A stretch of 64,000 nucleotides of DNA from an uncultured Lutibacter sp. GTDB taxonomy: Bacteria; Bacteroidota; Bacteroidia; Flavobacteriales; Flavobacteriaceae. The DNA is taken from contig NZ_CANLZZ010000002.1 in NCBI RefSeq assembly GCF_947495725.1, positions 186,001-250,000 of the forward strand, in the 5' to 3' direction. A model generated the notes under the pieces. That model saw only the letters and a program-made list of their open reading frames with translations, had not been told where the DNA came from and made no database searches. This document shows, piece by piece, positions 21,389 through 32,313 of this stretch. Position 1 is the first letter of the stretch, and every line of letters starts with the position of its first letter. The position numbers and the translations under genes are program-made.

Positions 21389-22108
21389 ATGCAGATTAAA
21401 AAGAATCCAAAAGCAAATCTAGAAAACTACAGCAAGATTTTTATGCAGTTAGGTTTAGTTTTAGCATTATTGGTGGTTTATTTAGCCATTGAGAAAAAAA
21501 CTTATGATAGAATAATTGACGACCTTGGTCCAGTAGTTTTAAACATGGATGATGAAGAGCAAACTATTGAAATTGAGCAAGTAAAACCGCCAGAACCAAA
21601 AACTCCACCACCACCAACTCCAGATAAAATTGAAGTTGTTGAAGATGAAGAAGAAATTGAAGAAACAGTAATAGAATCTACTGAAACTGATGAAAATGAA
21701 GCCGTTGAGGTTGAAGAAATTATTGAGGTAGAAGAAGTGGAAGAAGTTATTGAAGACGTTCCTTTCGCTATTATTGAAGACGTACCTGTATTTCCAGGTT
21801 GTAAAGGAAGTAAAGCACAGTTAAGAGCTTGTCTTCAAGAAAAAATTACAAAACACGTAAACAAAAAATTTAATGCTGATTTAGCATCTGATTTAGGATT
21901 AGCACCAGGTGTTAAGCGTATTTTTGTAATGTTTAAAATTGATAAAACAGGTAATATTACTGATGTAATGGCACGTGCCCCTCACAAAAGATTACAAGAG
22001 GAGGCTATTAGAGTTGTACAATCATTACCTAAAATGACTCCAGGAAAACAAAGAGGTAGACCTGTTGGTGTAAAATATAGTTTACCTATTGCTTTTAAAG
22101 TTGAATAG
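21389..22108 (+). CDS. tonB: TonB-family energy transducer
   Basis: 239 aa. A cytoplasmic stub is followed by one membrane helix (~residues 18-35), a Pro-rich stretch (VKPPEPKTPPPPTPDK) and a very acidic spacer of about 60 residues. The C-terminal TonB domain (~145-239) contains VPVFPGCKG and GVKYSLPIAFKVE. TonB couples the proton gradient, through ExbB and ExbD, to TonB-dependent receptors such as the one at 29947-32313. The acidic, valine-rich spacer is typical of Bacteroidota TonB proteins. A terminator follows. Confidence 0.9.
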   Translation: MQIKKNPKANLENYSKIFMQLGLVLALLVVYLAIEKKTYDRIIDDLGPVVLNMDDEEQTIEIEQVKPPEPKTPPPPTPDKIEVVEDEEEIEETVIESTETDENEAVEVEEIIEVEEVEEVIEDVPFAIIEDVPVFPGCKGSKAQLRACLQEKITKHVNKKFNADLASDLGLAPGVKRIFVMFKIDKTGNITDVMARAPHKRLQEEAIRVVQSLPKMTPGKQRGRPVGVKYSLPIAFKVE

Positions 22109-22228: not shown

Positions 22229-24226
22229 ATGAAAAGTTTATTTCTAAGTGCGATTTTAGTTTTATTTTTTAATATTGGATATTCACAATCCATTGTAAAT
22301 GATACACTTGTGAGGACGGCTACTATTGATTATAATTTAAATGGAAATAAAGTTTCGTTCACTCCTATAACTCCAGAATTAAATCAAATTGCTGGTGCTC
22401 CCAAGGCATTTTATTCATTTTATTGGGAATTTGGAGATGGAGAATATAGTTTCGAAAAAGAACCACAACATAGCTATAAAGAAAAAGGAAATTACAAAGT
22501 ACAGCTTTCGGTAACAAATAATTACGATGATGGTAAACCACCATTAACTAGACCTAAAGAGGTTGCGGTTATACAAGACAATAATTATTCTAACAACTCA
22601 GGTCATCAATTAATAAGTAATCATAACGGATTTCGATTGCAAACAAATAGAGAGCCAGTTCCAAATGAAGAAATTCAAATGATTTTGAGTTATGGAAACG
22701 ATAAGGAATATGCCACAAATGGAAAAATTTATGTCTTTTTTAATGAAAAAAAATATAAAAACAAAAACTTTGAATTAATTGAAACTCGTTTATATAATAA
22801 TGAACAAGAGAATAGTGAAGAAATAATAGCAAGCAACGCTACATTTATTTCAAAGGAAGAATTAATTAAAACTACAGGTATTTCCACATTTGTAAATAAA
22901 AATTTAATAATAGCAGACACATTAAAACAGAATTTACCTTTAACATTAGAAGATGCAAAAACCTATTATCAAGATGTCAAGGTATATGACTTTAACGAAA
23001 TGCAAGTAAATGAAGAGCGAAATATGTTTTTTACATTTAAAACTACTCCAGAAATGTTAAAAGATACCAGTGCTGTTATTTCGATTAGAAGTGTTTATGT
23101 TCCGGAAAGAGGTATTGATGATCATAAGGTGTTAACAAAAGAAATGGAAATTGTAACATCACACGATCCCAATAAAATGGCCGTTTATGATACTAGATTA
23201 AATTATAGACTAGTGCGTTTTAAACGATTGAAATATAAAGTAAGGTTTCAAAATGATGGGGAAGGTCCAGCGCGTTTAATTAAGCTAAATGTTGATATTC
23301 CTGATATGTTGGATAAGCAATCACTTAAAGTGTTGGATATGTATCCGAAATGTCCAATTTGCCCAGATGAACAAGAAGTTAATTATAGTTGTATAGATAC
23401 AATTATTTCAAAAAATCAAATTTCATTTCAGTTTAAAAATATTTACCTTCCTGGAACTGCACAAAAAGGAGTGCATGATAAGGATTCAACAAAAGGGTTT
23501 GTAAAATATTCGATGAAATTTGGAAAGGATTTTCATAAAGTATCTTCAAAGAGTAAAACAGCAATAATTTTTGATAAGAACGAACCAATTATAACTAACA
23601 CCTCTACTTCTCGGTTTAAGCCAGGGGTTTCTATTGGTGTAAAAGCAGGATACAATAGTTTTCCAGATTTAAAGGATTCTAAAAGTTACTTTTTTGGAGC
23701 AACTGTTTCTCCCTATAAATCATATAAAAAATATTTACAAGCTGAATTAATGTTTACAACCCATGAATATAATGAGTTTAGTTCATTAAATGAACAAATA
23801 GATGTACTTCAATTACCCGACGGAACTGCATTTGATGGAGTTCTAAAAAGTGAAGAAATTAGTTCTAAAACATCTAAATATTCAATTGATGTTGTTCCTA
23901 TTTCATTTCGATATAATTTAAATGGTGTTATTGGGTTAGGAGTTGGACCGCAAATTTCATTAGATTTTTCGAATAATACAGAAATTGAAACCCGAACAGA
24001 TTATTATACTTTTATGGGTAATAATGAACCAAGAAGGTTAATTGAAGGAGCGTCAACGGTAATTACTACAAAAGATAACAATCCATTTACAGATATTAAA
24101 TATGGAGTATTTGGAGATATTACAATAGGTGCATCGCGAATTGGACCAAGTTTAGGAGCACGATATATTTACAATTTTAATGAGCCGAATTCACAACTTC
24201 ATTTTTATGCAATTTGGAAAATATAA
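22229..24226 (+). CDS. Exported PKD-domain protein with C-terminal outer-membrane barrel-like region
   Basis: 665 aa. The signal peptide ends near GYSQ. A PKD domain follows at about residues 45-110, with the signature YWEFGDGEYS and a closing GNYKVQLSVTNN. The middle part (~310-460) includes SHDPNKMAVYD and KVRFQNDGEGPA, resembling DUF11-like beta domains of flavobacterial surface proteins. It contains CPICPDE. The last ~200 residues alternate aromatic and polar residues and end in aromatic-rich FYAIWKI, consistent with an outer-membrane beta-barrel. Its 3' end overlaps the TPR-CHAT gene by 13 bp, so the two are probably translated together. Function unknown; a surface sensor or anchor for the protease is an inference. 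Confidence 0.75.
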   Translation: MKSLFLSAILVLFFNIGYSQSIVNDTLVRTATIDYNLNGNKVSFTPITPELNQIAGAPKAFYSFYWEFGDGEYSFEKEPQHSYKEKGNYKVQLSVTNNYDDGKPPLTRPKEVAVIQDNNYSNNSGHQLISNHNGFRLQTNREPVPNEEIQMILSYGNDKEYATNGKIYVFFNEKKYKNKNFELIETRLYNNEQENSEEIIASNATFISKEELIKTTGISTFVNKNLIIADTLKQNLPLTLEDAKTYYQDVKVYDFNEMQVNEERNMFFTFKTTPEMLKDTSAVISIRSVYVPERGIDDHKVLTKEMEIVTSHDPNKMAVYDTRLNYRLVRFKRLKYKVRFQNDGEGPARLIKLNVDIPDMLDKQSLKVLDMYPKCPICPDEQEVNYSCIDTIISKNQISFQFKNIYLPGTAQKGVHDKDSTKGFVKYSMKFGKDFHKVSSKSKTAIIFDKNEPIITNTSTSRFKPGVSIGVKAGYNSFPDLKDSKSYFFGATVSPYKSYKKYLQAELMFTTHEYNEFSSLNEQIDVLQLPDGTAFDGVLKSEEISSKTSKYSIDVVPISFRYNLNGVIGLGVGPQISLDFSNNTEIETRTDYYTFMGNNEPRRLIEGASTVITTKDNNPFTDIKYGVFGDITIGASRIGPSLGARYIYNFNEPNSQLHFYAIWKI

Positions 24227-26910
24227 AATTTATTTTAAGTAGAAACTGGATTTTCTTATTGCTATGCATTAATACCTATTTTGCCTTTGCACAGCAATTA
24301 AATAATACTTTTCTTAACCAAATAAATACCTTAAAGAATAAAGATGATTTTTCTGAATATATTTATGTTCACTTAGATGAATTTGCTGCAAATGCAAGTA
24401 CAGAGAATTTAGTTATTTTCGAAAGATTAGAATTGGATTTGTGGCGAAATGCTGAAACCAAAAATGAAAAAATTGCACAATTGTATTTTTATATAAATTA
24501 TGCTTACCAATTAAAAGAATTTGGTTTTATAAATAAATCAATAAACTATTACGAAAAGGCTTTTGCATATTTTAAAAAGAATTCTCTTAATTATAATATT
24601 GTAGAGTACTGTTTAAAACCCTTAGCCAATAATTACACCCGTTTGGGCGATTTAAATAGAGCCGAAGATATTTTAAAAGTAACAATTGAAAAGGTTTTAA
24701 AATTAAATAATGAAGGTCAGTTGGCATCGGCATATTTAAATTTGGCAGCCGTTTACAGGGCAAAAGGCGCTTTTAAAGAGGCTATTAACTTGTTAAATAT
24801 GGCTTTGTTAAACGTAAAAACAAACGAGCAAAAAGCAAAGATAAACTCTGATATTGCTATTAATTTCTTAATGTTGGGCGATTGCGAAAACTCTAAGAAG
24901 TTTGTCAATATTTCGAAAAAATCAAACCTAAAAAAAGATGTAACTATTACCATTAGAAATTTGAATACCTTGGGGAGTTGTTTTCTTTCTGTTAATGAGT
25001 TTGATTTAGCTTTAAAAGAGTTTGAAAATGCATTATGGTTTTCCAAAAAATATTATGGGGCCAATAATAGAGAAGTTGCCAAAATATACAATAGTATTGG
25101 AGAAACTTACAGCTTAAATAATGAATTCCAAAAAGCGTTAAGTAGTTATCAGAAATCCCTAATTACATTATTACCTAATTATAAGCCCAAATCCATTTAC
25201 GAAAATCCAAAGTCTAAATATTTTTATCCAGAAAATACAATTAAAGAAGCGTTAGATGGGCGAGCTAAAATGTTAGTTAAACTTGAAAAACCTTTCGAAG
25301 CAATTGAAAATTATGAACTTTCATTTTTAATTGAAAATGAATTAAGAAGTAGTTATTTAAGTCAAAATTCAAAATTATTGCAACAGCAAGAAAATAGACT
25401 TAGAAGTGAAAAATGTATTGATTTGTGCTATACTCTTTTCGAACAAACAAAAAATATTGATTGGATTAAAAAGGCATTTTATTTTTCGGAACAAACAAAA
25501 TCGAGGGTTTTACTAGAAAATAAGGAGCTTTCTTTATTAAAGTCTTCGTTTAAAAATGATTCATTATTTATAAAAGAAAACGAATTATTATTAAAAAAAG
25601 GAGAACTTAATACCAACATAACGCTAGAGCAATTAAAAGGTGATAAAGCAAATTTAATTTTATTAGCAAAATTAACTTCCAAAAGAGAAAACGTTTTTAA
25701 CAAGCTTCATCTTATTAAACAAGATATTGATAAGAAATTTCCAAGTTTAAAAACAGATATAAATAAGATTGTAACTGTTAAAAAGTTAAAAGATAATATT
25801 TTAAAAAAAGAACAACTTTTAATGGAGTTTTTTGATGGAGAAAAATTTGTTTACATTTTTTCAGTTTCAAATAATAAACCTATAAATTTAATTAGAATTG
25901 AAAAGAATAGTGAGTTGATTAATGAGCTTTCAAAGTTTATTTCAATGTTTTCAAGTAATAGAGGATCTGATATTCAAAATAATATAGAAACTTATAAACT
26001 ACTTGCAAATAAGCTTTATTCAAAGCTTTTTAAAACTGAAATTCCAAGAAGTTTAATAATTATTCCTGATGGAATATTCTCGTTTGTTCCCTTTGATGCA
26101 TTGTTAACAGAAAAAACCGATTTGCTTAATTTTGAAAAATTGCCATACCTCTTAAATGTTTCAACAATAAGCTATTCTTATTCTGCATCTATTTTATTGA
26201 ACGATTCTAAAAAGATAAATAAAAAACAAAACAACATTTTAGGATTTTTTCCAGTTTTTAAAAATAATCATAGAGAATTGACCGAATTAAGTTTTACGGC
26301 CCAAGAAGCCAAAACTATTGAGAAAGAAACAACGGGTAAATTTTTAATTTATGAAGATGCATTGAAGAAGGCGTTTTTAAAAATTGATGCCAACCATTCA
26401 ATTCTTCATCTATCTACACATGCATCTGCAGGAAGTTACTTTGTTCCACCAGCAATTGAATTTTATGATGAAACTATGTATTTACCTGAAATTTATGGTC
26501 AAAAACTCGATTTGGATTTAGTTGTGTTAAGTGCCTGTGAAACAGGTATTGGAACCCTAAGAAAAGGGGAGGGTGTAATGAGTTTGGCACGAGGATTTTC
26601 GTTTGCTGGAGTTAAAAATTTAATAGTTTCACTTTGGAAGGTTAACGATAAATCTACACAGCAATTAATGGCTGGTTTTTACAAAAATTATGCAAATAAT
26701 AATAATAAATCTTCTGCACTGCACCAGTCTAAATTAGATTATTTGAAAAATAAAAAGGTTTCTTCTGTAAAAAAGTCGCCATATTATTGGGCTAGTTTTG
26801 TTTTTATTGGTGAAAATCAATTAAATAAACAATCTAACAACTTATTTTTATGGTTGTTGTTAGTACCAATATTATTATTTGTAGGTTATTTTCTTTTCAA
26901 AAAACATTAG
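24214..26910 (+). CDS. Exported TPR-CHAT domain protein (caspase-like cysteine protease), membrane-anchored
   Basis: 898 aa from a TTG start overlapping the upstream gene; this start precedes a good signal peptide ending FAFAQ. Residues ~70-430 are TPR-like repeats (for example SINYYEKAFAYFKKN and ALSSYQKSLITLLPN). The CHAT domain follows, with catalytic His736 in LHLSTHA and Cys775 in VLSACETG, plus GVMSLARGFSFAG and VSLWKVND. A C-terminal helix (~875-894, LFLWLLLVPILLFVGYFLF) ends in KKH. Signal peptide and C-terminal anchor together place the protease domain in the periplasm, held in the inner membrane. CHAT proteases are separase/caspase relatives. The 3' neighbours are a second protease and an ECF sigma factor. 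Confidence 0.88.
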   Translation: MENIKFILSRNWIFLLLCINTYFAFAQQLNNTFLNQINTLKNKDDFSEYIYVHLDEFAANASTENLVIFERLELDLWRNAETKNEKIAQLYFYINYAYQLKEFGFINKSINYYEKAFAYFKKNSLNYNIVEYCLKPLANNYTRLGDLNRAEDILKVTIEKVLKLNNEGQLASAYLNLAAVYRAKGAFKEAINLLNMALLNVKTNEQKAKINSDIAINFLMLGDCENSKKFVNISKKSNLKKDVTITIRNLNTLGSCFLSVNEFDLALKEFENALWFSKKYYGANNREVAKIYNSIGETYSLNNEFQKALSSYQKSLITLLPNYKPKSIYENPKSKYFYPENTIKEALDGRAKMLVKLEKPFEAIENYELSFLIENELRSSYLSQNSKLLQQQENRLRSEKCIDLCYTLFEQTKNIDWIKKAFYFSEQTKSRVLLENKELSLLKSSFKNDSLFIKENELLLKKGELNTNITLEQLKGDKANLILLAKLTSKRENVFNKLHLIKQDIDKKFPSLKTDINKIVTVKKLKDNILKKEQLLMEFFDGEKFVYIFSVSNNKPINLIRIEKNSELINELSKFISMFSSNRGSDIQNNIETYKLLANKLYSKLFKTEIPRSLIIIPDGIFSFVPFDALLTEKTDLLNFEKLPYLLNVSTISYSYSASILLNDSKKINKKQNNILGFFPVFKNNHRELTELSFTAQEAKTIEKETTGKFLIYEDALKKAFLKIDANHSILHLSTHASAGSYFVPPAIEFYDETMYLPEIYGQKLDLDLVVLSACETGIGTLRKGEGVMSLARGFSFAGVKNLIVSLWKVNDKSTQQLMAGFYKNYANNNNKSSALHQSKLDYLKNKKVSSVKKSPYYWASFVFIGENQLNKQSNNLFLWLLLVPILLFVGYFLFKKH

Positions 26911-26919
26911 TTTTGTCAA

Positions 26920-27372
26920 ATGAATTTAAAGGACATTCTTAAAAGAAAGGGCTACGTAAAGATTAATTTAAAAAAGATAAACACAAATCATTTTGAGGTA
27001 AAAGCTTTTATTAATAACGTTAAAGGAAGGTTTATTTTAGATACGGGAGCTTCAAATTCTTGTGTTGCAATGAATTTGGCAGAAAAGTTTGAGTTAAGTC
27101 TTGAAGATTCAAATACTAAAGCAGCAGGAGCAGGAGCTATTGGAATGGACACAATGGTTTCATCGAGCAATGAAATAAAATTAGGCCAATGGAATTTTAA
27201 AAATTTTAATTTAGTACTCTTAGATTTGTCGCATGTGAATACTGCATTGACCGAACATGACGCTGATGCTGTTGATGGTATTATTGGAGCAGATATTTTA
27301 GAAAAAGGCAAAGCAATTATAGATTATAAAAACAAATGCCTTTTTTTAAAAAAGCTAGTTTATAAGTATTAA
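26920..27372 (+). CDS. Retropepsin-like aspartic protease
   Basis: 150 aa. The active-site triad motif is FILDTGAS, with the catalytic Asp at residue 41. The second family landmark is VDGIIGADILEKGKAIIDY. It has one Asp motif, so it should work as a homodimer, as retroviral-type proteases do. There is no signal peptide or membrane helix, so it is probably cytoplasmic. It lies 9 bp after the TPR-CHAT gene and is likely co-transcribed with it. Its substrate is unknown. Confidence 0.88.
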   Translation: MNLKDILKRKGYVKINLKKINTNHFEVKAFINNVKGRFILDTGASNSCVAMNLAEKFELSLEDSNTKAAGAGAIGMDTMVSSSNEIKLGQWNFKNFNLVLLDLSHVNTALTEHDADAVDGIIGADILEKGKAIIDYKNKCLFLKKLVYKY

Positions 27373-27414
27373 AATAGCTTTTATTAATTAATTTTTCAAA
27401 AAAAATAAACTTCA

Positions 27415-27441
27415 GGCAACCATTTGCATATAATTTGCGTC
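27415..27441 (+). promoter_or_regulatory. ECF-type promoter of the sigma factor gene (probably autoregulated)
   Basis: GGCAACC at 27415-27421, a 16-bp spacer, then CGTC at 27438-27441. The AAC-containing -35, the CGTC -10 and the spacing follow the general ECF sigma promoter pattern. The best TAnnTTTG-like match here is off-consensus. Its position 32 bp upstream of the GTG start suggests that the sigma factor transcribes its own gene. Confidence 0.72.
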
Positions 27442-27472
27442 TTTTAAAATATAGAGAGATAAGATGTAATTT

Positions 27473-28036
27473 GTGAAAATCATTCAATTTTTTAATAACG
27501 AAGAAAAGCTCATAAAAAGAGCAATTCAAAAAAACCGTAGCGCACAAGAAAGGCTATACAGTTTGTATGCTCCAAAAATGCTCAGTGTTTGTAGGTATTA
27601 TATAAAAGATATTCACTTTGCAGAAGAAGTTATGTTAAATGGATTTTTAAAAGTGTTTTCTAATTTAAATAAGTTTGAAAATACTGGTAGTTTTGAAGGG
27701 TGGATTAGAAAAATAATGATAAGAGAATCCATTTCTTTTTTAAGAAAGCAAAAACACATTGAATTTTCTGTAGATGAAATTGAATTAAATAGTGAGCCTA
27801 TAAACTCTATTTATTCTTTAATTGATGTTGAAGAAATACAGTATTTAATTGACGCTTTACCTGATGGTTACAAAATGGTTTTTGTTATGTATGCTATTGA
27901 AGGTTACAAACATCATGAAATTGGGGAAATGTTGAAAATTTCAGAAGGAACTTCTAAATCGCAGTTGTTTAAAGCCCGAAAAATGCTTCAACAAAAAATT
28001 AACACACTAAATAAAACAAGCAATGGAACCTTATAA
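27473..28036 (+). CDS. ECF-family RNA polymerase sigma factor
   Basis: 187 aa with a GTG start. Region 2 is recognisable in ERLYSLYAPKMLSVCRYY through FEGWIRKIMIRESISFLRK. Region 4 contains IEGYKHHEIGEMLKISEGTS and SQLFKARKMLQQKI, the helix-turn-helix that reads the -35 element. Sigma regions 1 and 3 are absent, as in ECF factors. The gene overlaps the downstream anti-sigma-like gene by 14 bp, the usual arrangement for a sigma/anti-sigma pair. It lies directly after two protease genes and behind an ECF-type promoter. Confidence 0.93.
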   Translation: MKIIQFFNNEEKLIKRAIQKNRSAQERLYSLYAPKMLSVCRYYIKDIHFAEEVMLNGFLKVFSNLNKFENTGSFEGWIRKIMIRESISFLRKQKHIEFSVDEIELNSEPINSIYSLIDVEEIQYLIDALPDGYKMVFVMYAIEGYKHHEIGEMLKISEGTSKSQLFKARKMLQQKINTLNKTSNGTL

Positions 28037-28790
28037 TTTTGAACAGGACATAAAAAGAAAGCTTGAAAAAAGAACTATAAAACCCTCTGAGAATTCTTGG
28101 AATAAATTGGCAAATTCGCTTCAATCTAAAGAAGATAAAAAGAATATCAAGTTTTTAAGAATTATTGGAATTGCAGCATGTATTGTTGGTGTTTTATTTG
28201 TTGTGTCTATTTTTTTTAACCATAAAAAAGAATCAACAGAGCCTACAATAGTTACATCTCCAATACCTCAAAAAGAGAAGTCAATAAACAAAGTAGAAAT
28301 TGAAGAATTAGTTGCTGAGGATGATAATTTTGAGCTTATAGTTAATGAAAAATTAGAAAAAACTAAACAGGAAAAAACAATAGTTAAACCACTTAATAAT
28401 TTAAATGGAAATAGAAAACCGGTTATTGCAAGAGTTGAAAGTAATATTGTAAAAAGTGATATTATTTCAAAAAATGGATTGGAAAAGGAGGTAAGTGCTG
28501 TAAGTAATGAAGAAAACCAAGAAATTGAACTTGTAATTAATCAAATTGAAGATTTAAAAACCAAACATATTTCAGTGTCAACAACAGATGTTGATTTGTT
28601 GTTGAAAAATGCACAGAAAAAGTTGGCTTTAGAAAGAATTTATAATGAGAATATTAAAACAGTTGACGCATATAAATTGCTTCAAGACGTTGAAGCAGAT
28701 ATAGACAAGTCTACAAGAACAAAGATTTTAGAGACTTTGAAATTAAATTATGAGCATATGAAAACTGTCATTGCGCAAAGAAATGATTAA
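28023..28790 (+). CDS. Single-pass membrane protein, putative anti-sigma factor
   Basis: 255 aa. A short charged N-terminal domain (residues 1-43, including IKPSENSWNKLANSL) precedes one membrane helix at ~44-65, followed by a long Lys/Glu-rich periplasmic part. There is no zinc-binding ZAS motif (HxxxCxxC). Overlap with the sigma gene and the topology (cytoplasmic head, one helix, periplasmic tail) fit an anti-sigma factor of the kind common in Bacteroidota. That function is inferred from context only. Confidence 0.7.
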   Translation: MEPYNFEQDIKRKLEKRTIKPSENSWNKLANSLQSKEDKKNIKFLRIIGIAACIVGVLFVVSIFFNHKKESTEPTIVTSPIPQKEKSINKVEIEELVAEDDNFELIVNEKLEKTKQEKTIVKPLNNLNGNRKPVIARVESNIVKSDIISKNGLEKEVSAVSNEENQEIELVINQIEDLKTKHISVSTTDVDLLLKNAQKKLALERIYNENIKTVDAYKLLQDVEADIDKSTRTKILETLKLNYEHMKTVIAQRND

Positions 28791-28814
28791 AGAACAATTT
28801 AAAAAACATTCACA

Positions 28815-29879
28815 ATGATTAATATATCAAAATTAGTAACAATATTAGCATTAGTATTAGGAATACAGTTTATTGGTGCGCAAGAAAATTATAATAGTAA
28901 TAGAATTAAAATTTTAAATGAGAAGAAAGAAAAAATTACAACTGAAGAACGTGATTTTTTAAAGACTGAAGTTGAAAATATAATGAAGCGTTTGCAAAAT
29001 GGAGAAATTACAGAAGAAAAAGCAAAAGAGTTAAAGGAAAAAGCTGCTCAAAAAAGAGCTTTAAATATTGAAAACCGAACAGCAATAATAGAAAATAAAA
29101 TTGCACTGCTAGAACGAAATGATAATGGTTATGATGATAATGAAGGAGAAACTTCAATGGGAGGTTTTAGTATTGGAGGAAACAAAGGTACTTTGATTGG
29201 AGTTAAAACGAAAGGTAATAATAAGCCAAAAAAATACGACAGAAGAACTTACAGTGATTTAGTAATTGCTTTTGGTTTAAACAATGCCATAATTGATGGA
29301 GAAAAATTAGATGATTCGCCTTATAAATTTGGAGGCTCTCGTTTTTTTGAATTGGGTTGGGCTTGGAGAACAAGAGTGTTTGAAAAAACCAATTTTATGC
29401 GCTTAAAGTATGGTGTTTCTGTTCAAATAAACGGATACAAACCTGTTGATAATAATTATTTTGTAGAAAATGGAGGGGAAACTTCTCTTGAGGTTTTTCC
29501 ATATGACTTAAAAAAATCGAAGTTAAGTATTACTAATTTAGTAATTCCAGTTCATTTTGAATTTGGCCCTTCTAAGAAAATTGTTAAGGATAATTATTAC
29601 CGATACAATACCTACAATAAGTTTAAATTTGGAATTGGAGGCTATGCTGGTTTTAATATAGGAACTCGTCAAAAATTGAAATATTCTATTGATGGAGATA
29701 AGGTTAAAGACAAATTAAAACGAGATTATAATGCCAGTAATTTGGTTTATGGTGTTAGTTCTTATATTGCATTTAAAAACACTGCTGTGTATGTAAAATA
29801 TGATTTGTCACCAATATTTAAGGATCAAACAGTAGATCAAAACAATATTTCCTTAGGTGTTAGATTTGATATGGAATAA
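28815..29879 (+). CDS. Exported protein with coiled-coil and outer-membrane beta-barrel-like C-terminus
   Basis: 354 aa. A signal peptide ends near FIGAQ. Residues ~30-98 are highly charged and helical (EEKAKELKEKAAQKRAL), probably a coiled coil. From ~135 to the end, alternating hydrophobic and aromatic residues and the final ISLGVRFDME suggest an 8-10-stranded outer-membrane barrel of the PorT/OmpA-like type. It is 24 bp downstream of the anti-sigma-like gene and last in the transcription unit before a strong hairpin. It could be the effector or the sensor of the sigma pathway. No specific family is recognised. Confidence 0.72.
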   Translation: MINISKLVTILALVLGIQFIGAQENYNSNRIKILNEKKEKITTEERDFLKTEVENIMKRLQNGEITEEKAKELKEKAAQKRALNIENRTAIIENKIALLERNDNGYDDNEGETSMGGFSIGGNKGTLIGVKTKGNNKPKKYDRRTYSDLVIAFGLNNAIIDGEKLDDSPYKFGGSRFFELGWAWRTRVFEKTNFMRLKYGVSVQINGYKPVDNNYFVENGGETSLEVFPYDLKKSKLSITNLVIPVHFEFGPSKKIVKDNYYRYNTYNKFKFGIGGYAGFNIGTRQKLKYSIDGDKVKDKLKRDYNASNLVYGVSSYIAFKNTAVYVKYDLSPIFKDQTVDQNNISLGVRFDME

Positions 29880-29946: not shown

Positions 29947-32313
29947 TTAGTTTAAAATGTTTCCAAATTTTAACCCAAAATAAATTGTTCGTGGATTCAT
30001 TGGGCCGTAAATATAGCCTGGATCTCTGTAAATTCCTGAGTCAAAATCATCCTGGTATGAGTTTAAAATATTTTTCATACCTGTTGAAATTTCTATATTG
30101 TTGTGTTTAAATTTAATGGTTTTGGTAATTTTTAAACCAGCATCAAAAAAGTTTCTTGATTTTCTTAACTCACCTTCTTCAGGATTGTTTATTGTTGGTC
30201 CAAAATACGGCACTAACATTTTTCCTGTAAAAGTTCCTGTGCCAATAATACACCATGTATCTGTTGCCTCCCAGTCAATTGTATAAAAACCATAATTATC
30301 GGGTGTTCTAAAAAAGCTTTTTTCATCAAATTCTTGAGCTTCTTCATATTCGCTTTTTTGGATGGTATAACCAGCCTTTATTTTTAAATTAGAATTAGGA
30401 ACATAGTTTAATTCAAGATTTACACCAACAACCGTAGCTCCTTTTTTAGCGTTAATTCTTGTGTAAGTTACAGTTCCATTTTCGTTTGGATCAGAATATT
30501 CATTAGTAAAAGGATTTTTAAGTTTTGTGTAGAAACCTTCGGCTAATATACCAAAAGAACTAGTTCCAAACGATTTGCTATAATCTAAAGAAGCCATAAA
30601 ACTATCACTTGTTTCTTGTTCTAAATTAGGAGCGTTTACATGAATAACTTTTCTAGATCCTGAAGATTCAATATGTAAATCTTCATCAAAAATTTGAGGA
30701 GCTCTATAACCGGCAGAATAACTTATACGAGCTTGTAAATTTGGTTGAACGTCGTACAAAAAATTAATTCTCGGACTAAAAACGTTTCCGGTTTTTTCTT
30801 TTGCATTTTTTTCTTCATCCTTAACCTGATATGAATCAAATCTTGCGCCTAACGATAATTTTAGTTTGTTAAATCTAATGTCGTATTGCGAGAAAACTCC
30901 AAAGGTATTCATTTTTTGGTCTGCAATGGTTGTGTTTTCGGTGTGGGGAATAGAAATTATTTCATTATTTACAATTATGGCATTGCCTATATCTAAGTAC
31001 CCTAGTTTTTTATCTTTTAGAGCAGAGTAGGTATTTTCAATTCCCGAAACTAAATCCGAATTTTCAAATTTTGCATTGTATTGAACTCCGGAGTTAAACG
31101 TAAAATCTTTGGTGTTTCCATAGTCGCTTAAAGATTGCTCTGCACCGTAATAAGAATCTCGATTAATTTTTTGACCTGAAGCGAATATTGAAAATAAGTC
31201 GTTTTCTCTATAATATTGCTCAAAAGTAACAGCAGTAGTAGTTAAATTATGCTCAACATATTCCGAGATGTCAGCTTCATGATTTGGAACATTAAATTTG
31301 TTTCCTCCTCTTCTTTCTTCATTAATATGAAAAAAATCTAAAGAAATTTTAGCTCTAGATCCTAGTTTTTGAAACATTCTTGAACCTAAAGTTGAGTTTT
31401 TTAACAAAGCTATTTCAGAAAATGAATCTTCATTTGCATCATAAGGTTTTCTATTTCTGTGGAAAGCATAAATTGAAATTCCGTTTTTATCGTTTTCACC
31501 AACAACATTGGCATTAAAGTTTAACGAATAATCTGTAGTGGTAGTGCCTTCTCCAACACCAATAAAGGTATTGTTTACTCCAACCTCGTAAGAATCTTGG
31601 ATTGGGTCTTTTAAAAGTAAATTTATGGTTCCTGCAATAGCATTACTACCATATAAAGCAGAACCTCCACCGCGAATAATTTCTACTTTTTCAATCATAT
31701 TTGCAGGAATTAATTCTAAACCATAAACGCCTGCCAAACCACTAAAAATAGGTCTGCTATTTATAAGGATTTGAGAATATGGACCTTCTAAACCATTCAT
31801 TCTAACTTGGCTAAATCCACAGTTTTGACAATCATTTTCCATTCGTAAACCAGAACAGAAATTTAGTCCTTCGCTTAATGTAACGGATTGTGTAGATTGA
31901 AAAATTTCGGTATTAATTACATTTACAATTGATGAAGCTTTTTTACGCATAATTCTACTTCTATTTCCTGTAATAACAACTTCTTCTAAGCCGAGAACAT
32001 CAGCTTGAAGTTCAATTGTAATAGTTAATTCTTCATTAGTTTCTAAATCTACTAGTTGTTCGAAAGGTTTAAAACCTACCGATTGAATTTGAACTGTATA
32101 AAAACCAGGTTTTATATTTTTTATATTAAATGTGCCGTACTCATCGGTTGAAGTTCCAATATGTGTTCCTTTAATTGATACGGTTGCATAAGGGATTTCA
32201 CTCCCATTATTTTTTACTTTTCCTAATAAGGTTGCACTCGAAAAATTGTCTTGTGCAGTTATAAATTGTCCTGTTAGCAATAGTGTAACCAATGCTAAAA
32301 TGTATTTTTGCAT
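29947..32313 (-). CDS. TonB-dependent outer-membrane receptor with carboxypeptidase-D-like N-terminal domain
   Basis: 788 aa. A signal peptide (ending FITAQD) is followed by a carboxypeptidase-regulatory-like domain (~25-105, GTSTDEYGTFNIKNIKPGFY). The plug domain (~120-235) has ALYGSNAIAGTINLLL, and the rest is a 22-strand-type barrel. The plug contains an uncommon ENDCQNCGFSQVRMNG segment with a CxxC pair, which could bind a metal or form a disulfide. The gene is 40 bp downstream of a His-rich small membrane protein and shares its promoter. The paired operator-like palindromes suggest metal-responsive control. The likely ligand is a metal, metal chelate or tetrapyrrole, but this is inference. 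Confidence 0.92.
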   Translation of the reverse strand: MQKYILALVTLLLTGQFITAQDNFSSATLLGKVKNNGSEIPYATVSIKGTHIGTSTDEYGTFNIKNIKPGFYTVQIQSVGFKPFEQLVDLETNEELTITIELQADVLGLEEVVITGNRSRIMRKKASSIVNVINTEIFQSTQSVTLSEGLNFCSGLRMENDCQNCGFSQVRMNGLEGPYSQILINSRPIFSGLAGVYGLELIPANMIEKVEIIRGGGSALYGSNAIAGTINLLLKDPIQDSYEVGVNNTFIGVGEGTTTTDYSLNFNANVVGENDKNGISIYAFHRNRKPYDANEDSFSEIALLKNSTLGSRMFQKLGSRAKISLDFFHINEERRGGNKFNVPNHEADISEYVEHNLTTTAVTFEQYYRENDLFSIFASGQKINRDSYYGAEQSLSDYGNTKDFTFNSGVQYNAKFENSDLVSGIENTYSALKDKKLGYLDIGNAIIVNNEIISIPHTENTTIADQKMNTFGVFSQYDIRFNKLKLSLGARFDSYQVKDEEKNAKEKTGNVFSPRINFLYDVQPNLQARISYSAGYRAPQIFDEDLHIESSGSRKVIHVNAPNLEQETSDSFMASLDYSKSFGTSSFGILAEGFYTKLKNPFTNEYSDPNENGTVTYTRINAKKGATVVGVNLELNYVPNSNLKIKAGYTIQKSEYEEAQEFDEKSFFRTPDNYGFYTIDWEATDTWCIIGTGTFTGKMLVPYFGPTINNPEEGELRKSRNFFDAGLKITKTIKFKHNNIEISTGMKNILNSYQDDFDSGIYRDPGYIYGPMNPRTIYFGLKFGNILN

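Follow-up and report, generated by a model that had tools for sequence, protein, structure and literature searches.

The window analyzed here is a stretch of 64,000 nucleotides from the genome of an uncultured Lutibacter sp. (Flavobacteriaceae; contig NZ_CANLZZ010000002.1, positions 186,001 to 250,000), and within it lies a row of six open reading frames (ORFs), all on the + strand. The first two encode an exported protein with a barrel-like C terminus, designated BAR1 (22229..24226), and a TPR-CHAT caspase-like protein, designated CHAT (24214..26910; TTG start). They are followed by genes for a retropepsin-like protein (RETR; 26920..27372), an extracytoplasmic function (ECF) sigma factor (SIG; 27473..28036; GTG start), a presumed anti-sigma factor (ANTI; 28023..28790), and an exported barrel-like protein (BAR2; 28815..29879). 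An earlier note on this DNA had described the spacing of the row (a 13-bp overlap, gaps of 9 bp and 100 bp, a 14-bp overlap, and a 24-bp gap), all of which we reproduced, and had proposed that CHAT in the periplasm and RETR in the cytoplasm cleave ANTI and release SIG. Our results from related genomes show that the row consists of genes of three histories, SIG-ANTI-BAR2, RETR, and BAR1-CHAT, and that the CHAT of the window most likely works with another sigma/anti-sigma pair, located elsewhere in that genome at a distance of approximately 129 kb.

CHAT is a predicted periplasmic caspase-like protein

CHAT matches the TPR models of Pfam and the CHAT family PF12770 (155.8 bits against a cutoff of 24; E = 2.2e-45), and is the one CHAT match in the window's genome. 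The residues His736 (codon 26419..26421, + strand) and Cys775 (codon 26536..26538, + strand), described earlier as intact, are invariant in alignments of 18 (18/18) and 81 (81/81) sequences, each of which includes that of the window. By its profile and this His/Cys dyad, CHAT is a member of the CHAT-domain (clan CD caspase-like) family, with predicted protease activity. The AlphaFold2 model (predicted local distance difference test, 88.8) consists of an N-terminal helix, a TPR array, the CHAT domain, and a final helix at residues 875 to 897. Its top fold match in the PDB was Csx29 (8eey_B; E = 7e-15; template modeling [TM] scores, 0.45/0.53), and separase was another of its better solved matches. 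A profile search against the sequences of solved structures gave 81 matches, and the 60 listed all align over TPR residues.

In a crude hydropathy test on the 79 named orthologues of at least 800 amino acids (aa), 72 had a hydrophobic segment at the N terminus and 77 had one at the C terminus, in agreement with the signal peptide and C-terminal anchor that had been read from the window's sequence. The predicted topology is one in which the C-terminal anchor holds CHAT in the inner membrane and the TPR and caspase-like domains are periplasmic. BAR1 carries the Pfam domains PKD_4, DUF7619, and DUF7849. PHROGs searches gave weak matches, as did PADLOC searches, RETR excepted.

BAR1-CHAT forms a conserved module with c7, c8, and c10

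Some match to the CHAT query was found in 73 of 149 genomes of the family. Eighteen genomes besides that of the window have a CHAT orthologue (E ≤ 2e-87; genomes and loci are given below by our G and L handles), that of G089 being at a contig end; G058 has BAR1 and next to it a CHAT truncated by the end of the contig, and G051 has a CHAT remnant. BAR1 matches are present in 29/149 genomes. The 20 strong ones (E ≤ 8e-184) come from the same 20 genomes as CHAT, two of these CHAT genes being cut by contig ends, and the other nine are weak and partial. BAR1 is upstream of CHAT in 17/17 fetched loci. BAR1 is the constant partner of CHAT.

Most genomes without CHAT have the order TatD - RETR - response regulator - sucB - sucA, and most of those with it have TatD - c7 - c8 - (c21) - c10 - BAR1 - CHAT - RETR - response regulator - sucB - sucA, where c7, c8, c10, and c21 are labels for gene clusters found in the CHAT neighborhoods of relatives. 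The flanking clusters are presumably TatD, asparaginase, sucA, and sucB, judging from their sequences, and the identity of the response regulator was checked by test. In the 17 fetched orthologue loci, c7, c8, c10, BAR1, and CHAT occur together in all, with c7-c8 divergent from c10-BAR1-CHAT in all, and RETR occurs in 15. Among 80 named loci, a set that partly overlaps the family-genome loci, 64 hold both c8 and c7, upstream of CHAT and divergent in 63 and on its far side in L157; c8 is beside c7 in each of the 64 loci that hold it. The remaining 16 comprise eight loci with less than 3.8 kb of upstream DNA, six split Lutibacter loci, and L170 and L176, which have no such pair. A strong c8 match (E ≤ 6.4e-68) was found in 19 of the 20 genomes with CHAT and BAR1 and in none of the 129 others (P = 4e-23, uncorrected for relatedness and linkage). 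The arrangement c7-c8-c10-BAR1-CHAT, without RETR, also occurs outside the family in Fulvivirga, Marivirga, and Parachryseolinea, the c7/c8 pair being on the opposite side of CHAT in the last.

The c8 protein of the window's genome is an ECF sigma factor (TIGR02937, 62.8 bits against a cutoff of 42.9), c7 is a transmembrane protein with a C-terminal TPR domain, and c10 is lipoprotein-like as judged by eye. The c7 model shows four N-terminal helices, a helix at residues 93 to 111, and the TPR domain. It is predicted that the helical N terminus is inside the cell and that, after one transmembrane segment, the TPR domain is periplasmic, on the same side as the CHAT domains. One c7 orthologue matches the anti-sigma factor model NF052375 (E = 2.5e-8), below that model's cutoff.

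The same association was found with CHAT paralogues. Twenty paralogue loci, comprising 18 consecutive rows and two from lower down, were drawn from the list of CHAT matches at a time when c8 had not yet been found; L128 to L140, which were chosen by sigma match, are left out. A c8-type sigma factor and a c7-type anti-sigma factor are present in 19 of the 20, in a convergent (12), divergent (5), or codirectional (2) orientation, and either adjacent (12) or with one gene (6) or four genes (L053) between. Counted from the sigma factor, 48 of 52 c8-like rows have a CHAT match no more than 8 kb away (30 of 33 after removal of the module's own 19 rows), and the exceptions are G000, which is the window's genome and is split, G003 (a remnant), and G079 and G015 (CHAT on other contigs). 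We therefore consider it very probable that CHAT is genetically coupled with c7/c8. Remnants of the module were observed in two genomes: G003 (L104, 9232-10204) retains c7 and a broken c8, with no CHAT orthologue and no BAR1, and G051 (L049, 3886-4509) retains a CHAT remnant, with no BAR1 and no c8. The parts of the module appear to decay together.

The module is split in the window's genome

The genes c7-c8-c10-c10 of the window's genome are located at G000:C2:80205-83903, near tatD and outside the window. The CHAT of the window corresponds to C2:210214-212907, 128.7 kb from c8. Among 38 Lutibacter genomes, CHAT is present in 21 and c8 in 21, and the two lists are identical (P = 3e-11). The two genes are linked within 5 kb in ten of these genomes and split, with c7-c8-c10 elsewhere, in another ten. 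The remaining genome, G173, is in short contigs; a TonB-like gene comes after its c10, so it too is probably split. The best explanation is that a conserved envelope-signaling module has been divided in the window's genome, with BAR1-CHAT as the half that split off and c7-c8-c10-c10 as the regulatory half.

Upstream of BAR1, a TonB-like gene (21389..22108, + strand; TonB_C in Pfam) marks the derived junction at which the module was split. The order TonB-BAR1-CHAT-RETR is found in nine other split Lutibacter loci, and TonB-RETR, with nothing between, in 13 Lutibacter genomes without CHAT. In G150, G164, and G165, TonB-RETR may be a different junction, because tatD adjoins it or is one gene off. 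TonB-like genes were seen at both ends of the split, at 21389-22108 before BAR1 and as tandem copies after c10 (L121:12080-13732), which suggests that recombination between tonB copies made the rearrangement.

A promoter-like motif is associated with c8

The divergent gaps at c8 contain the motif GGGTAACAA-N13-TTGATAT. GGTAAC is present in 57 of the 63 gaps from which the motif was itself derived, with a 15-base spacer in 52 of the 57. TTGATA is matched in full in 41, at five letters in 12, and at four letters in 4, and the four-letter matches mean little because the spacer was picked as the best of 11. The six gaps without GGTAAC are 6, 14, 38, 38, 72, and 176 bases long.

Across Lutibacter, the pattern GGTAACAAN{13,14}TGATAT has 54 matches, spread over all 21 genomes with c8, versus 2 matches in the 17 genomes without it; the reversed pattern, used as a control, has 5 matches in all 38 genomes, 2 of them in genomes with c8. 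As 28 of the 54 are at the module, this count is partly circular, and the weight therefore rests on the sites outside the module: the other 26 occur in 12/21 genomes with c8, versus 2/17 without it (P = 0.006). Of these 26 sites, 25 were read. An ORF start lies within 100 bp of 20 of them, although for two of the ORFs the first possible start overlaps the motif and an inner start codon was used. All 20 ORFs have signal-peptide or lipoprotein-like N termini as judged by eye. We infer that c8 reads GGGTAACAA-N13-TTGATAT. Candidate targets were observed at L293:4151-6256, L293:11101-11370, and L294:5216-5569. The candidates include an exported protein of 702 aa followed by a surface protein of 1139 aa, small exported proteins that contain RKRPG repeats, and DUF6970 lipoprotein-like proteins.

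No c8-type site was found before BAR1-CHAT in any of ten split Lutibacter loci, the window's included (in an eleventh, L256, the contig ends within the locus), and CHAT therefore seems to be off that promoter in the split genomes. CHAT has nevertheless been kept together with c8 in all of them.

SIG-ANTI-BAR2 and RETR are associated with BAR1-CHAT by position

SIG was correctly read as a sigma factor: it passes TIGR02937 (87.2 bits against a cutoff of 42.9) and matches Sigma70 r2 and r4_2 of Pfam. The label of ANTI as its anti-sigma factor is presumptive, being given by position, a single transmembrane segment, and linkage to SIG; ANTI has no Pfam or NCBIfam match above cutoff, and BAR2 has no Pfam match above cutoff. 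In the 30 loci with the best ANTI matches (the window's own included; flanks of about 1.5 kb), the order SIG-ANTI-BAR2 is kept in all, RETR is present in three, and CHAT is present in that of the window alone. The 100-bp gap before SIG, said earlier to hold an ECF promoter, contains the promoter-like motif GGCAAC...GCGTCT (27415..27442, + strand), which is strongly conserved, recurs in 29 of the 30 loci, including the window's, and is always 28 bp long where found. It probably reflects autoregulation of the SIG-ANTI-BAR2 unit. No good SIG-type promoter was found before BAR1, where the best candidate agrees at 11 of 16 letters.

The SIG-ANTI-BAR2 unit is common in Flavobacteriaceae and has a conserved promoter of its own. 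At E ≤ 0.001, ANTI is present in 103/149 and BAR2 in 111/149 family genomes, a few of the BAR2 matches being weak or partial. The frequencies in genomes with CHAT and in the others are 16/20 versus 87/129 for ANTI (P = 0.31) and 16/20 versus 95/129 for BAR2 (P = 0.78). In the 16 genomes with both CHAT and ANTI, ANTI is on another contig in nine and at 53 to 989 kb on the same contig in six; the window is the sole case in which the two are close (1.1 kb). The trio was considered as a partner of CHAT and rejected, its presence being independent of CHAT and its location distant from CHAT in 15 of these 16 genomes. It follows RETR in five genomes with CHAT (G000, G151, G154, G174, and G175) and in two without (G047 and, in another genus, G113), and it is not beside RETR in five split Lutibacter genomes with CHAT (G149, G152, G155, G156, and G171). 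The six-gene order was found in 5 of the 38 Lutibacter genomes, the window's included, and in 1 of the 80 named CHAT loci; this one, L141 (L. citreus), is G151 and thus among the five.

The retropepsin-like identity of RETR was borne out (Asp_protease_2, E = 3.5e-13), with no signal peptide seen. Its DTGA motif is more than 90% conserved across 59 aligned sequences, the window's included, and in PADLOC the protein has a match to the candidate model PDC-M08B (E = 5e-11). RETR is present in 142/149 family genomes (E ≤ 0.001) and directly follows CHAT in 58 of the 80 named loci, a placement that we read as the site of insertion of the module. Membership of RETR in the CHAT module was rejected: the gene is near universal, mostly keeps its other neighbors where CHAT is absent, and does not adjoin the module in Fulvivirga, Marivirga, or Parachryseolinea or in G094 or G074. 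RETR is a core gene of the family and probably a bystander to the module. As RETR is near universal and ANTI and BAR2 are not associated with CHAT, neither looks like the specific partner of CHAT, and the best explanation is that SIG-ANTI-BAR2 and the retropepsin are neighbors of BAR1-CHAT with separate roles. Directly past the row, on the opposite strand, is a TonB-dependent receptor gene (29947-32313; CarboxypepD_reg and Plug).

DISCUSSION

Our results favor, by a little, an explanation in which CHAT, c7, and c8 together make up an envelope-signaling system. CHAT would be activated by a cue from the envelope or the surface, for which BAR1 or c10 may serve as the relay, and would then cut or remodel the periplasmic part of c7. 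Other proteases would complete the breakdown of c7, and the released c8 would transcribe from GGGTAACAA-N13-TTGATAT promoters, which precede c10 and, elsewhere, genes for exported and lipoprotein-like proteins. The likeliest mechanism is that CHAT acts by proteolysis of c7, and we hold it with about even confidence. The earlier note was right partly in kind and wrong in partners: the idea of an exported CHAT working with an ECF sigma factor and a membrane anti-sigma factor is strongly supported, but the partners are most likely c8 and c7, not SIG and ANTI. The row shows that adjacency by itself can indicate the wrong partner.

A number of findings weigh against this explanation. The c7 of the window's genome matches no anti-sigma model, and its N terminus had no fold match in Foldseek (TPR-type folds were among the matches listed, with a best E value of 0.02). 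The anti-sigma proteins of paralogue loci L055, L056, L058, and L059 gave no transmembrane segment in a crude test, and neither paralogue locus L067 nor L050, a weak CHAT match outside the 20, has a c8/c7 pair in the stretch fetched. There is no c7/c8 near L170 and L176, and G089 has CHAT and BAR1 with no c8 match (this assembly is 82% complete and in 260 contigs). The genomes counted are related and thus not independent. The Lutibacter tree is rough, with weak support at most of its nodes, and groups G157, which is unsplit, with G000, which is split (95% support); it is too weak for a count of independent losses. For the motif, 5 of the 25 extramodule sites have no ORF start within 100 bp, one of them being inside an ORF, and 9 of the 21 genomes with c8 have no exact motif outside the module. 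In the window's genome, three of four such sites are near a gene and one is near none. Finally, the unsplit layout places a c8-type promoter before c10-BAR1-CHAT, so CHAT is probably transcribed by c8 there and could be an output of the pathway.

This last point raises the possibility that the c8 pathway produces CHAT when needed, as an effector at the surface or in cell death, and that CHAT is not its activating protease. The other c8-motif sites precede exported proteins, but the split Lutibacter loci have no c8-type site at BAR1-CHAT (0/10) and yet CHAT and c8 co-occur in all of them, and the paralogues keep the sigma/anti-sigma pair in three orientations. We consider CHAT as an output unlikely. 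It is improbable that CHAT acts on c7/c8 by binding c7 as a TPR scaffold or sensor and not by proteolysis: although both proteins have TPR domains, His736 and Cys775, which a scaffold would not need, are invariant in 81/81 sequences, and the nearest fold, Csx29, is described as an active endopeptidase (PMC10028731). Cleavage of ANTI by periplasmic CHAT and cytoplasmic RETR with release of SIG would fit the topology, the adjacency in 5/38 Lutibacter genomes, and the ECF-type promoter of SIG, but it is highly improbable, given that ANTI and BAR2 are unassociated with CHAT in 149 genomes, that ANTI lies on another contig or no closer than 53 kb in 15/16 genomes with both CHAT and ANTI, that RETR and CHAT are present in 3/30 and 1/30 SIG loci, that the trio is beside RETR without CHAT in G047 and G113 and absent from there in five split genomes with CHAT, and that BAR1 has no good SIG-type promoter.

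Many Flavobacteriaceae, and a few genomes that fall outside the family, carry the trio of TPR-CHAT, anti-sigma-like protein, and ECF sigma factor; along with it come a protease predicted to be periplasmic, a promoter motif that can be read, and candidates for the target genes. The module opens the native role of bacterial caspase-like proteins to testing in a cultured bacterium, as the genome of Flavobacterium johnsoniae CI04 bears it (L214). The recurring module resembles a caspase-type switch that acts on outer-surface genes. We found no paper on a Bacteroidota c7/c8/CHAT module in a literature search whose coverage excluded most subscription papers and preprints.

The proposed mechanism resembles DegS/RseP-type control in that CHAT would likewise make the periplasmic first cut of a membrane anti-sigma factor. 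In contrast, CHAT, as a cysteine protease of the caspase-like type, is not related to DegS, and no site-2 protease gene was recognized in the CHAT module. The better fold matches to the CHAT model also included structures of DdvA, a transmembrane anti-sigma factor of Myxococcus (8rw5 and 8rot; E = 1.7e-10 and 3.6e-10), although the match is loose (TM score, 0.26 to 0.30; root mean square deviation, 17 to 30 Å). According to the PDB titles, the matching protein is itself an anti-sigma factor, whereas CHAT and the anti-sigma factor are separate genes here. CHAT proteins have also been described in the genetic context of ECF54 sigma factors, along with subtilase and carboxypeptidase, and proteolytic control was proposed (PMC8999054). 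This resemblance is one of gene context; the module differs in having a membrane anti-sigma-like c7 beside c8 in all 64 named loci with c8.

The closest precedent is the Craspase/CASP system of type III-E CRISPR (Csx29, Csx30, and CASP-sigma), in which the TPR-CHAT protein Csx29 is reported to cleave Csx30, the inhibitor of an ECF sigma factor (PMC10028731). It is the only TPR-CHAT that we found in print to cut a sigma factor inhibitor, and it belongs to a CRISPR system. As in Craspase, a TPR-CHAT is linked here to an ECF sigma factor and its presumed inhibitor, c7 (17/17 and 64/80 loci), and co-occurs with them even where unlinked, in the split Lutibacter genomes, the window's among them. Unlike the CHAT of the module, Csx29 is RNA guided through Cas7-11; no search for cas genes was made at the CHAT loci. 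Unlike Craspase, CHAT here is predicted to be exported and membrane anchored, and the anti-sigma-like c7 has one transmembrane segment. We tentatively suggest that Bacteroidota possess a family of such modules, in which an exported, tail-anchored TPR-CHAT would serve as the periplasmic first protease for a dedicated TPR anti-sigma factor and ECF sigma factor. These modules would control surface proteins and would be related to the Craspase CASP-sigma switch, perhaps ancestral to it, but independent of CRISPR.

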